A stretch of DNA of 10,832 bases. Source: Desulfobulbus sp. Its GTDB lineage: Bacteria; Desulfobacterota; Desulfobulbia; Desulfobulbales; Desulfobulbaceae. The translations under genes were made by a program, and so were the position numbers. The stretch lies in contig JAUWAH010000034.1 of the NCBI GenBank assembly GCA_030602145.1, positions 1-10,832 on the forward strand, written 5' to 3'. The notes beneath the pieces were generated by a model. The model was not told the DNA's origin, ran no database searches, and was given only the letters and a program-made list of their open reading frames with translations. Of the stretch, positions 6,622 to 10,832 are shown piece after piece (position 1 is the first letter of the stretch; each line of letters starts with the position of its first letter).

Positions 6622-7956
6622 CTACTTCTTGCGGCCGCTCCGTTCGCGGAACAGCAGGCGGACCGGCACCCTGTCGAGTCCCAAGCCCTCCCGGAAGCAG
6701 TTGGTCAGGTAGCTCTGATAGGATAAATGGATCCCCTTGGGGTCACTGGCGACCACGGCGAACAGCGGCGGTGCGGTGCCCAGTTGGGCGGTATAGAAAA
6801 ACTTGAGGCGACGGCCGTGGAAGTAGGGCGGCTCGTGTCTGGCCACGGCCTCGGCCAGCAACCGGTTGAGGGCGGCGGTGGGGAACCGCTGGTGGAACTG
6901 GCGATGCACCTTGCCGATTTCGGGAAAGAGACGCTTGATCCCGGTGCCGGTCAGGGCGGAAACCTTGAGCACCGGCGCGAAGGGAATGAACTTGACCGCC
7001 ATCCGCACCTCCTGCAGGAGCTGCTCCTGCCGCTTTTTGTCGTCCTTGATCAAATCCCACTTGTTGATGAGGATGATCAGCGCCCTGCCCTGATCCTGGG
7101 TATAGCCGATCACCTTGGTATCCTGCTCGGTGATGCCCTCTTCGGCGTCGATGAGCACCAAGGCGATGTCGCAGCGCCCAAGGGCCTTGAGCGCCTTGAG
7201 AATGGAGAACTTCTCCAGCTTGTCGGTGGTCTTGCCCTTGCGGCGGATGCCGGCGGTATCGATGAGCAGATAGGTATAGGGATCGCGGCTCACCAGGGTA
7301 TCGATCGAATCGCGGGTGGTGCCGGCGATTTCGGAGACCACCATCCGCTCCTGGCCGATGATGGCGTTGATCATCGACGACTTGCCGACATTGGGGCGGC
7401 CGAGGAAGGCTACCCGCATGGTGTTGTCCGGCAGGTCGACCGCATCGGTTCGTTCCAGATGGGGCAGCAGCGCCTCCATCAGGGTGTCGACCCCGTAGCC
7501 ATGGTCGGCGGACAGCGCCCACAGCGACTCGACCCCCAATTCCCAGAAGGGGGTGATCAGGGTGTCTTCGATCTCCGGGCTGTCGATCTTGTTGACGATG
7601 AAAAAGACCTTCTTGTCGGTGCGGCGGAGCAGATCGACGATTTCAATATCGCTCGGGGTCAACCCCTCGCGGCCGTCCATGAGAAAGAAAATGACATCCG
7701 CCTCCTCGACGGCCAACAGGGCCTGATGGCGGATATGGTTGACGATGGTGTCGTCCTCGTTGTCAATGCCGCCGGTATCCACCAGGACAAAGGGATGCTC
7801 CTCCCAGCTCACCTGCGCATAATGGCGGTCGCGGGTCACGCCAGGCGTCGGGTCGACCAGGGCGTCGCGGCGGCGGGTCAACCGGTTGAACAGGGTGGAC
7901 TTGCCCACGTTGGGGCGGCCGATGAGGGCGACCAGGGTGGTGTTTTCGGTCTTCAT
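6622..7956 (-). CDS. der: Ribosome-associated GTPase Der (EngA)
   Basis: Der is an essential GTPase with two tandem G domains that acts in assembly of the 50S ribosomal subunit. The 444-aa protein has a first G domain with GRPNVGKS (13-20), TPGVTRD (37-43), DTGG (60-63) and NKID (122-125). The second has GRPNVGKS (186-193), AGTTRD (211-216), DTAG (233-236) and NKWD (298-301). The C-terminal KH-like domain spans about 350-444. The linker between the G domains is short. The start at 7956 is preferred over ATG 7983 because it gives an ATGA overlap with the kinase gene upstream and places MKTENTTLVALIG directly at the fold; the nearest AGGAG (complement of 7971-7975) is 14 nt away, so coupling probably drives initiation. 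It is third in a three-gene operon. No clear intrinsic terminator follows the stop. Confidence 0.96.
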   Translation of the reverse strand: MKTENTTLVALIGRPNVGKSTLFNRLTRRRDALVDPTPGVTRDRHYAQVSWEEHPFVLVDTGGIDNEDDTIVNHIRHQALLAVEEADVIFFLMDGREGLTPSDIEIVDLLRRTDKKVFFIVNKIDSPEIEDTLITPFWELGVESLWALSADHGYGVDTLMEALLPHLERTDAVDLPDNTMRVAFLGRPNVGKSSMINAIIGQERMVVSEIAGTTRDSIDTLVSRDPYTYLLIDTAGIRRKGKTTDKLEKFSILKALKALGRCDIALVLIDAEEGITEQDTKVIGYTQDQGRALIILINKWDLIKDDKKRQEQLLQEVRMAVKFIPFAPVLKVSALTGTGIKRLFPEIGKVHRQFHQRFPTAALNRLLAEAVARHEPPYFHGRRLKFFYTAQLGTAPPLFAVVASDPKGIHLSYQSYLTNCFREGLGLDRVPVRLLFRERSGRKK

Positions 7957-8990
7957 GATCGTCGGGCAATCTCCTGGCGGCATTGATCGGTGAGGCGGCG
8001 TAGGGCAGCATACCCGGCGGCCTCGGGTTTGGCAAGCAGGCCGCCCAGCGAAACCAGGGCCGGTTCGAGGTAGCGGGCGAAAAACGGCTTGCCGCGCACC
8101 TGGCTTAAGAAGGCGAATGCCCCCAGGATCTGGAGATTGCGTTGCAGGGCCAGGTGCAGGTATTCGGAGCGGAACCGATCCGGATCGTAGGGCAGCTCTT
8201 CCCGCAGGGCATCGAGATAGACTGCGAGGAGATGGTCCTGCACGGGTTCGGGCAACCCGGCATAGGGATCAAGCAGCAGCGAGGCCAGATCGTAGCCCAA
8301 CGGCCCGAGACGGCCACCCTGAAAATCGATAAACCGGATCCGGCCGTCGACGACCATGACGTTGCGGCACTGGACATCGCGGTGGAGGAAAAACCCGGCC
8401 GGGGCGCGGGCCGCCTCCCCGGCCAGCCGTTCGCAGTCGGCGGCCACCGCGGCGCGGTCGAAATCAAGCCCCAGCAGGTCGGTGCAGCAGGCCCGGAGAA
8501 AATAGCCGGATTCGCGCTCGATCATCAATTGCCGGTCATACCGGGGCGTGTCCCAGCACCAGGCCGGATCGAAACCCGCCGCCCCCCGCACCTGCATCCG
8601 CGCCAGTTGCCGCACGGTCTGCTCGTACAGCACCACGGCTCGATCGATCCCCTGCTCCCGGACCTGCTCGAACAGGCGCCGGTCCCCCAGATCTTCGCAG
8701 AGCACCAGGCCGGTGTCCGGATCAAAACCATGCATCGCCGGCACGGCGGCGCCGGCACGGTGGAGATGACGGCCGATGCGGATGAAGGCCAGGGCCTCGT
8801 CGTGGCCGCGCGGCTCACCCTCCGGGGGCAGCACCGCAATCACCGCCAGCTTTGGCCCGCACAACTGATAGAAACGCCGGCTGGACCCGTCGGGCACCAG
8901 GACCTGCACCCGAACGTTCGCCCCGTTCCACTCCTCAGGCGCAGCACCGAGGAGCCGACCGGCCAGGGCAATGAGCCGGTCGGTGTTCAT
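7953..8990 (-). CDS. AmgK-like sugar kinase (APH-fold phosphotransferase, COG3178 type)
   Basis: This 345-aa protein has an aminoglycoside-phosphotransferase/choline-kinase fold. The ATP-binding lobe contains DGSSRRFYQL (34-43), followed by the hinge-like VLCEDLGDRRL (96-106). The catalytic loop is FFLHRDVQCRNVM (200-212; Brenner motif H203, D205, N210) and the metal-binding motif is IDFQ (221-224, D222), followed by GPLGYDLASLLLDPY (229-243). The HRD...RNVM, DFQ, GP..YDLASLL series matches the AmgK group, whose characterised Pseudomonas members phosphorylate MurNAc/GlcNAc at the anomeric carbon in a recycling shortcut with MurU. The neighbouring gene is a MurU-like nucleotidyltransferase, which supports a linked kinase-uridylyltransferase pair, though another sugar substrate is possible. 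The start at 8990 has GGAGGG (complement of 8997-9002) and an ATGA overlap with the gene before it; the stop overlaps der likewise. Confidence 0.88.
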   Translation of the reverse strand: MNTDRLIALAGRLLGAAPEEWNGANVRVQVLVPDGSSRRFYQLCGPKLAVIAVLPPEGEPRGHDEALAFIRIGRHLHRAGAAVPAMHGFDPDTGLVLCEDLGDRRLFEQVREQGIDRAVVLYEQTVRQLARMQVRGAAGFDPAWCWDTPRYDRQLMIERESGYFLRACCTDLLGLDFDRAAVAADCERLAGEAARAPAGFFLHRDVQCRNVMVVDGRIRFIDFQGGRLGPLGYDLASLLLDPYAGLPEPVQDHLLAVYLDALREELPYDPDRFRSEYLHLALQRNLQILGAFAFLSQVRGKPFFARYLEPALVSLGGLLAKPEAAGYAALRRLTDQCRQEIARRS

Positions 8991-9883
8991 TGTTGGCCCT
9001 CCGGCTGTGGCGACACTGCCTGCCCATCGACCTCGGCATGGCCGGTGACGATCCGGTCGATGCAAACAGCACCCGGAACCACCTCGGCCCCATCCCAGAC
9101 CACCGATCGGCACAGGCTGGCGCCCGCACCGATCACCGCACCCGCCCCGATGCAGCCCCATCCCTCCAGGATCACGCCGGCCTCAATCCGGGCGGTCGGG
9201 TCGATCAACCAGTCTGTTCGACCGGCGAGCAGCTCCCGGTGCAGATCGAGGTAGTCCATGGGTGTGCCGATGTCCCGCCAGAGGGCGCCGTCAACCCGGC
9301 AGAAACCGATCCGCCCCTCCACGGCCAGTTGCCGATACAGATCGATGATGTGGTGGAACCGGCCGAATGGAATTCGCTCGATCGCCTCCGGATCGACCAC
9401 CTGGATGCCGGTGAAGGCCAGATGACCGTCTCCGCCTCCGTCGAAGCCCCGCACCCGATCACCCTCGACGCCAACCTTGTTGAAGCGGGGCAGATCGTGC
9501 AGGGCCAGAGTGACGTCGTTTTTCGAGAGCAGGTGGCGGTGATAGACCCACTCCAGGTCGATCTCGTGGTACAGGTCGCCGTTCATCACCAGTACCGGAT
9601 CGTTGTCCAACTGCTCCAGGGCCAGGCGGAGGCTGCCGCCGGTGCCGAGGATCACCGGCTCCTCCTGGATGATCACCCCCGGCCACGGGGCCAGCGCCGC
9701 CCTGACCTGCTGGGCCAGGTGGTGGCAGTTGACCACCACCAGCCGGCAATCGTGGGCGCGGAGCTGGTCGAGCAATCGGTGGAGCAGCGGTTGGTTGACC
9801 ACCGGGAAGAGCGGCTTGGGACGGATGTCGGTGTAGGGCCGCAGTCGGGTACCGTACCCGGCGGCCAGGAGAATGGCTTGCAT
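8987..9883 (-). CDS. MurU-like sugar-1-phosphate nucleotidyltransferase with C-terminal beta-helix
   Basis: This 298-aa NTP-transferase starts with the canonical nucleotide-binding signature LLAAGYGTRLRPYT (5-18) and K23 (RPKPLFPV). It has GTGGSLRLAL (80-89), the metal-binding NGD (101-103), FTGIQVVDP (157-165) and WRDIGTP (202-208). Residues about 227-285 look like hexapeptide/left-handed beta-helix turns (ARIEAGVILEGWGCIGAGAVIGAGA). Pseudomonas MurU is only about 220 residues and lacks this tail, so this is a longer relative; mannose-1-phosphate guanylyltransferase-like or other NDP-sugar synthase activity remains possible. Pairing with the AmgK-like kinase favours MurNAc-1-phosphate uridylyltransferase. 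ATG 9883 is fixed by the signature at its N terminus, yet no Shine-Dalgarno is visible and no convincing promoter was found. It is the first gene of the operon with the kinase and der. Confidence 0.88.
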   Translation of the reverse strand: MQAILLAAGYGTRLRPYTDIRPKPLFPVVNQPLLHRLLDQLRAHDCRLVVVNCHHLAQQVRAALAPWPGVIIQEEPVILGTGGSLRLALEQLDNDPVLVMNGDLYHEIDLEWVYHRHLLSKNDVTLALHDLPRFNKVGVEGDRVRGFDGGGDGHLAFTGIQVVDPEAIERIPFGRFHHIIDLYRQLAVEGRIGFCRVDGALWRDIGTPMDYLDLHRELLAGRTDWLIDPTARIEAGVILEGWGCIGAGAVIGAGASLCRSVVWDGAEVVPGAVCIDRIVTGHAEVDGQAVSPQPEGQQ

Positions 9884-10052: not shown

Positions 10053-10832
10053 ATGATTACCCTGCTTGATTACGGCGCCGGCAACGTTCGTTCGGTGATC
10101 AACGCCATCGAACGGCTCGGCGAGACCGTCTCCCTGGTCAGCAGCTCCACCGATATCGACCGGGCCGAGCGGCTGATCTTCCCCGGTGTCGGCAACTTCG
10201 GCGCCCTGATGCACACCCTGCGGGAAAAAGGATTGCGCGAGCCATTGCTCCGCTACCTGCATTCCGGCAAACCCTTCTTCGGCATCTGCGTCGCCCTGCA
10301 GGCCCTGTTCGAGTCGAGCGAGGAGGCCCCCGAAGAACCGGGACTGGGCCTGCTCCCCGGCCGGGTGCAGCGGTTCACCTGCGACCTGGCCATACCGCAC
10401 ATCGGCTGGAACGGCATCAAGGCTCATCAGGCCTCGCCGCTCTTCAAGGGGCTCACCGGCAACGAAAAGTTCTACTTCGTCCACTCGTACCATGTGGCCC
10501 CGGCCACCGGCGACGACATCCTCACCACCACCGATTACGGCTACGAGTTCGTCAGCGCCATCCAGAAGGGGGCCATGGTGGCCACCCAGTTCCATCCGGA
10601 AAAGAGCGGCCGGGCCGGGCTCAAACTGCTGGAAAACTTCCTCGCCGGCAACCGCCAGGCCATTCGCCCGGCGGCCTGTCCGCAGACCACCGAGCTGGCC
10701 AAGCGGATCATCGCCTGTCTCGATGTCCGCGCCAACGACCAGGGCGACCTGGTGGTCACCAAGGGCGACCAGTACGATGTCCGCGAGGAGGGAGCGGTTC
10801 GCAACCTGGGTAAGCCGGTGGAACTGGCCGGC
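10053..10832 (+). CDS. hisHF: Fused imidazole glycerol phosphate synthase HisH-HisF, HIS7-like (3' end cut by window edge)
   Basis: The enzyme makes imidazole glycerol phosphate and AICAR from PRFAR and glutamine in histidine synthesis. In most bacteria the glutaminase (HisH) and cyclase (HisF) are separate. Here 260 codons are open without a stop to the last base. Residues 1-198 are a complete HisH domain: DYGAGNVRS (6-14), FPGVGNFG (43-50), nucleophile Cys79 in GICVALQALF, HIGWN (116-120), YFVHSYH (141-147), and the His181/Glu183 pair in ATQFHPEKSG. A linker of about 15 residues follows. Then LAKRIIACLDVRAND (215-229) opens HisF, with Asp224 at the place of the cyclase catalytic Asp, and the insert GDLVVTKGDQYDVRE...VRNLGKPVELAG (231-260) matches fungal HIS7. 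No strong Shine-Dalgarno precedes the ATG, only an A-rich stretch. Domain identity is certain; the cyclase remainder is outside. Confidence 0.94.
   Translation, partial: MITLLDYGAGNVRSVINAIERLGETVSLVSSSTDIDRAERLIFPGVGNFGALMHTLREKGLREPLLRYLHSGKPFFGICVALQALFESSEEAPEEPGLGLLPGRVQRFTCDLAIPHIGWNGIKAHQASPLFKGLTGNEKFYFVHSYHVAPATGDDILTTTDYGYEFVSAIQKGAMVATQFHPEKSGRAGLKLLENFLAGNRQAIRPAACPQTTELAKRIIACLDVRANDQGDLVVTKGDQYDVREEGAVRNLGKPVELAG

Follow-up and report, generated by a model that had tools for sequence, protein, structure and literature searches.

A Desulfobulbus gene predicted to encode a HIS7-type HisH–HisF fusion and its kinship with the eukaryotic enzyme

In the ordinary two-gene bacterial arrangement, HisH and HisF are separate proteins of families TIGR01855 and TIGR00735, and HisF is about 253 aa long, with spacings of 4, 11 and 10 residues at three sites where HIS7-type HisF has 9, 22 and 34. 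The best described fused counterpart is yeast HIS7, for which PDB entries 1jvn, 1ox4, 1ox5 and 1ox6 are HisHF structures. Excerpts of an earlier survey (Fani et al., 2007; PMC1963479) describe a set of 21 bifunctional sequences that includes three from two delta-proteobacteria, note inserts found only in the bifunctional proteins, and propose a plant-to-bacterium transfer for HisHF. HisHF is also described in two Archaeoglobales in an excerpt of PMC11237513, and prokaryotic HisHF as such is already known from these two sources. For the origin of HIS7, the excerpted text of PMC8305728 offers either a fusion in a eukaryotic ancestor or a transfer from a still unknown prokaryote.

The stretch of DNA analysed here (the window) comprises 10,832 nucleotides of Desulfobulbus sp., and at its end a frame of 260 codons runs without a stop until the contig itself ends (C179 of source genome G000; Table 1). 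A longer frame starts at 9873; we placed the start of the gene at 10053 because relatives begin with the same MITLLDYGAGN. The NCBIfam HisH model covers residues 2–197 with a score above its cut-off of 105.4 bits, indicating a complete N-terminal HisH. It is followed by the start of HisF on residues 215–259, where the score falls below the model cut-off because the contig stops there. The original prediction of a HisH running in frame into a HisF with a long HIS7-like insert, and of HIS7-like blocks in the glutaminase, was thus borne out: both family matches lie in one frame, and insert and blocks are where it had placed them. We take GICVALQ to be the nucleophile motif and both it and HPEKSG to carry catalytic roles in the HisH glutaminase. 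The ordinary two-gene pattern is absent, as there is no stop before 10832 and the first HisF loop is long. The window almost certainly contains the first half of Desulfobulbus hisHF, whose predicted product is a HIS7-type bifunctional imidazole glycerol phosphate synthase. The 3′ half was not found in the source assembly (a 72% complete draft of 481 contigs), so the complete fusion is known from relatives and not from this assembly; nor was a separate hisH or hisF found in this 72% complete genome. Elsewhere in the window, a kinase and sugar nucleotidyltransferase pair (7953–9883, minus strand) resembles AmgK and MurU, with scores far below the NCBIfam cut-offs, and a Mur ligase lies at 653–2101; by sequence, this set hints at a possible role in cell-wall recycling.

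Table 1. Coordinates of the fused gene, its parts and related genes (window positions unless a genome or locus is given)
Feature	Position	Strand	Basis
hisHF (HIS7-type), 5′ part, 260 codons, ends at contig end	10053..10832	+	open frame and homology
HisH glutaminase domain, residues 1–197, contains GICVALQ and HPEKSG	10053..10643	+	TIGR01855, 221.8 bits
GICVALQ motif	10281–10301	+	motif position
HPEKSG motif	10593–10610	+	motif position
HisH–HisF linker, about 17 residues	10644..10694	+	gap separating the two family matches
HisF cyclase domain start, about 46 residues, with CLDVR	10695..10832	+	TIGR00735, 30.9 bits, partial
CLDVR motif	10716–10730	+	motif position
HIS7-type insert 1 region NDQGDLVVTKGDQYDVRE, loop after HisF strand 1	10734..10787	+	motif position, alignments
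VRNLGKPVELAG, last window letters of the HisF start	10797–10832	+	motif position
Eukaryote-type HisA	G000:C87:3091-3687 (L003:1489-2085)	+	TIGR02129
Unfused f34-type HisF with HIS7-type inserts 1 and 3	L055:1731-2624; L056:1499-2392 (-); L057:1250-2143 (-)		

In the closest full-length relative (L006), the frame continues as a single ORF of 524 aa, which rules out a chance open frame and is near the roughly 550 aa expected of a fusion product. This ORF is identical to the frame of L141 from Desulfobulbus elongatus DSM 2908, and the part in the window matches it at 93.1% identity (242/260). Its HisF domain scores 318.8 bits with TIGR00735 (cut-off 294.55), and the full-length relative scores 585.9 bits against the HisHF of PDB 1jvn as opposed to at most 172 bits against stand-alone HisF or HisH chains. 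Across the genus, 20 of 23 genomes match the fused gene, the source genome counted; the other 19 have open frames of 472–749 aa, and the three without a match are 56–76% complete. A stop or frameshift just past the point where the window ends was looked for in these congeners, and none was seen. In all seven near-complete congeners examined (G001, G004, G008, G011, G014, G018, G022), the fused frame is the sole HisH over the cut-off, and PF00977 matches above 30 bits comprise only the fused HisF, a eukaryote-type HisA and a 122-aa piece in G014; at that threshold, no full separate hisF was seen in any of the seven. Since these near-complete congeners show no separate HisH over the cut-off and no full separate hisF, we take the fused gene to be the copy on which the genus relies. 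The piece in G014 (G014:C1:2937867-2938151) is a C-terminal HisF fragment separated from the fused gene by about 14 kb, perhaps the remnant of a duplication.

The position of the gene at the contig end of a draft genome might suggest an assembly chimera or eukaryotic contamination. We give that explanation practically no credence: its same-contig neighbours, a Mur ligase, an EngA-type GTPase and NfeD, are bacterial, and the fused gene also occurs in the single-contig congeners G001, G008, G014 and G018.

In the order, the fused gene is missing or possibly missing from four near-complete genomes. G041 and G042 have matches only in HisH of stand-alone size, and G036 and G045 (98–99% complete) have no HisH over the cut-off, through either gene loss or an assembly gap; these last two nevertheless carry a eukaryote-type HisA. 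In the single-contig genome G027, the HisHF match is divided over two overlapping frames of 111 and 477 aa (G027:C1:718880-719655, minus strand), an apparent frameshift or sequencing error. An extra stand-alone HisH of 37–42% identity was seen in G023, G030, G031, G046, G048, G051 and others, and this second HisH is perhaps a sugar-amidation paralogue.

If the reaction scheme of the known enzyme applies (described in part in PMC1963479), the N-terminal HisH would split glutamine and the ammonia would pass through the barrel of the C-terminal HisF, which would convert PRFAR to imidazole glycerol phosphate and AICAR in the fifth step of histidine synthesis; through the fusion, the two domains would be present in a fixed 1:1 ratio and in fixed contact. 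The loop after HisF strand 1, where insert 1 lies, is described as mobile, and the control that it exerts on catalysis has been studied in ordinary HisF (PMC11350729, in excerpt). By analogy, we infer that insert 1 makes a changed active-site loop, which may give HIS7-type enzymes an altered control.

The fused gene is widespread in the phylum, occurring in 65 of 395 genomes and 26 families. These counts were read off the match listing, in which the other genomes listed mostly match over HisH alone in frames of 200–300 aa, and the 65 consist of 61 near full-length one-frame matches (at least 524 aa), G050 (a split match inside one 582-aa frame, counted as fused), the source genome, and G086 and G192, which are ended by contig ends and presumed fused. 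In G353, the fused frame would have had an upstream partner (an 869-aa open frame), a candidate that we dropped since its 346 leading residues have no Pfam match at 0.001. In a wider scan of genome contigs, the gene was fused in all 80 of the best 80 of 552 loci; these were ranked by yeast likeness, so they are uninformative on the fused share outside the phylum. Their organisms are mainly delta-proteobacteria and Thermodesulfobacteriota, with sporadic fused records in SAR324 (L092), Chromatiaceae (L097), Archaeoglobales (L120), Aenigmatarchaeota (L131) and Magnetocorallium (L153, ranked as Nitrospirota); these five are MAG contigs that could be misbinned, and for Archaeoglobales PMC11237513 describes the same kind of gene. 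The HIS7-type spacings (9, 22) recur in 80/80 fused prokaryotic loci and in 111 of the 120 proteins from a search with the yeast query, the remaining nine being (9, 23) or unread. Inserts 2 and 3 would fall past the contig end of the window and are present in L006, and insert 2 was found in all 80 fused loci.

Part of this insert pattern also occurs in HisF proteins with no HisH attached. In family f34 (3/3 sampled genomes, G073, G110 and G145; 3/395 overall), HisF is a separate 298-aa protein with inserts 1 and 3 present and insert 2 absent. G073 and G110 encode their HisH at another place in the genome, and G145 (80% complete) yielded none above the cut-off. A protein search with one of these HisF listed 26 clusters of this form (P0121–P0146), of 278–325 aa without a glutaminase domain, 23 of which show the first insert while the other three begin downstream of it. 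All 26 have 11 residues at the site of the 22 in fused proteins; in P0150 (named Aenigmatarchaeota) and P0158, which are likewise unfused, there are 13. L055–L057, P0121–P0146, P0150 and P0158 are like the fused proteins in their HIS7-type inserts 1 and 3, and unlike them in the missing HisH and the shorter second spacing. HisF of 270–275 aa, including those of Archaeoglobus, Geoglobus, Methanosphaera and Methanothermobacter, show a first spacing of 8 (ordinary 4) and a third of 25–29 (ordinary 10, HIS7-type 34). Some proteins combine a first spacing of 4 with a third of 25–35, so the order of the early insert steps is only an inferred one.

The f34 proteins are possibly a retained pre-fusion state. 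The opposite course, fission of a fused gene followed by loss of insert 2, could in principle produce the same form, and it would fit with f34 being the only bacterial family that carries the unfused form in our survey. We nevertheless consider fission unlikely, given that the second spacing is exactly the ordinary 11 residues in every f34-type cluster and that, with insert columns removed, the unfused rows branch outside the fused clade (below).

Our HisF core tree (83 rows, 257 columns, insert columns left out) was made from a 90-row set by removing seven near-copies and partials. The joined HisH and HisF tree (57 rows, 524 columns) was made from an 88-row set by removing 31 rows, namely 28 bacterial rows (thinning) and P0173, P0174 and P0191. 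For a third tree with an unfused outgroup (eight unfused rows), we took away six ordinary rows, restored L060, L071 and P0173, and brought in L062 together with six unfused rows that have HisF only. The window itself is not a row, its gene being represented by L006. The eukaryotic rows are fungi and protist-like sequences, the latter called eukaryotic by their grouping with fungi, with no plants and no Asgard archaea in the trees. In all nine protist-like rows of the 88-row set, the HisH part is shorter than 170 residues, and a quick HisH-only tree of 88 rows was set aside as evidence on account of three long protist rows. P0174, named as the ostracod Cyprideis torosa, falls among bacteria in the 90-row, 83-row and 88-row trees and is likely a contaminant. 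P0173 (EukProt) stands beside a bacterium in the 83-row tree and with eukaryotes in the 90-row, 88-row and unfused-outgroup trees.

In the HisF core tree, fused and unfused HIS7-type HisF form one clade (100/100), within which the fused prokaryotic and eukaryotic rows form another (100/99), leaving the unfused rows outside. The gene therefore shares common descent with eukaryotic HIS7, judging by sequence, and the homology that the original prediction had implied stands. Adjacent hisH and hisF genes split by a single stop do exist in the phylum (L063–L068), which makes fusion look easy and independent fusion in bacteria and eukaryotes conceivable; such convergence is highly improbable, though, with three HisF inserts common to all fused rows and one clade recovered even without the insert columns.

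The direction of descent is a separate matter, for which that prediction had offered either a bacterial lineage close to the origin of the eukaryotic enzyme or a transfer between the domains. In the HisF core tree, eukaryotes fall among the prokaryotic fused rows, their own clade being weak (93/50). The joined tree unites them in a single clade (100/98), and the nodes that nest it have 100/97, 99/95 and 97/86; with the unfused outgroup the eukaryote clade has 99/96. The prokaryotic fused rows were kept together in 0% of bootstrap trees for the HisF core, in 0/200 for the joined tree (as one side of a branch) and in 2% with the unfused outgroup. Trees that keep the prokaryotes together are not rejected by approximately unbiased (AU) tests (p 0.322 for the HisF core; 0.187, 0.093 and 0.175), nor are three trees in which prokaryotes and one eukaryote group are separated from the remaining eukaryotes (p 0.097, 0.06 and 0.068), and p stayed at or above 0.05 after joining HisH and HisF, dropping the far outgroup or adding HisF-only unfused rows.

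These tests leave room for the published direction, in which the fusion was made in eukaryotes and passed (from plants, in Fani et al., 2007) to delta-proteobacteria, then to sulfate reducers and a few archaea. The excerpted PMC1963479 places bacterial HisHF beside plants, which our trees lack, and AU rejects neither prokaryotes together nor prokaryotes inside eukaryotes. We regard this direction as doubtful, considering that the best trees nest eukaryotes among prokaryotes, that at most 2% of bootstrap trees keep the prokaryotic fused rows together, that the insert-bearing unfused HisF proteins come from prokaryotes and branch outside every fused row, and that the gene is so widely spread among the families of the phylum. 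Because unfused HisF with part of the inserts lies outside the fused clade and eukaryotes are nested within it, we lean towards a prokaryotic origin: the two-domain tree suggested at the outset, run with fungi, protist-like sequences, bacteria and archaea, tips towards a lineage close to the origin, with the AU tests compatible with the opposite direction too.

Assembly of the fusion in prokaryotes, followed by transfer to eukaryotes, is accordingly the course that these sequences favour, short of proof. In its full form, to which we incline on the tree and the insert pattern, eukaryotic HIS7 would not be eukaryote-made. The series would start from a euryarchaeal-type HisF in which the segment at insert 3 is lengthened; inserts 1 and 3 would then be completed, a state kept unfused in f34 and some Aenigmatarchaeota; insert 2 and fusion to HisH would follow, most likely in Thermodesulfobacteriota; and lastly an already fused gene of the prokaryotic pool would enter early eukaryotes. 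There is a precedent for histidine genes from the deltaproteobacterial side in plant HISN2 (HisIE), which is closest to Deltaproteobacteria according to an excerpt of PMC8102479.

The source genome also encodes a second eukaryote-like enzyme of the histidine pathway, a eukaryote-type HisA (TIGR02129 hisA_euk, 275.2 bits, cut-off 229.3). In the PDB it matches nothing but 9fcf and 2agk, which are of plant and yeast origin. This HisA is strong in 53 of 55 kin-group genomes and weak in G043, with no match in G005. At E ≤ 1e-15, it occurs in 34/395 phylum genomes, 24 of them among the 65 with HisHF and 10 not (Fisher p 1e-13, kinship uncorrected). Many of the same bacteria have it, and it may have travelled with the fused gene. 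Among the titles and abstract openings listed by our searches of open-licence literature, we saw no report of eukaryote-type HisA in these bacteria, nor of unfused HisF with HIS7 inserts. A different fusion was seen in P0209 (491 aa), where an ordinary HisA (TIGR00007, 403 bits) stands ahead of an ordinary HisF (TIGR00735, 465 bits).

Taken alone, the window gene is ordinary for its group. What is added here is the phylum-wide spread, the unfused HisF with part of the inserts, and the nesting of eukaryotes among prokaryotic fused rows. A wide prokaryotic HisHF family with unfused outgroups makes the origin of HIS7 testable by ordinary phylogenetics, and the series of inserts and fusion can be read as showing, step by step, how a bifunctional channelling enzyme came together.

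Compared with S. cerevisiae HIS7, the full-length relative L006 has the same HisH–HisF order in one chain and the same three HisF inserts, with 55.9% identity over 513 aligned residues; it is about 30 residues shorter than the 552-aa yeast protein (P0241), mainly in the linker and HisH. The delta-proteobacterial and Archaeoglobales HisHF, as far as the excerpts of PMC1963479 and PMC11237513 describe them, are the same kind of fused gene in sulfate reducers. Fani et al. (2007, in excerpt) inferred plant transfer from three bacterial sequences, and the window gene is another member of that set.
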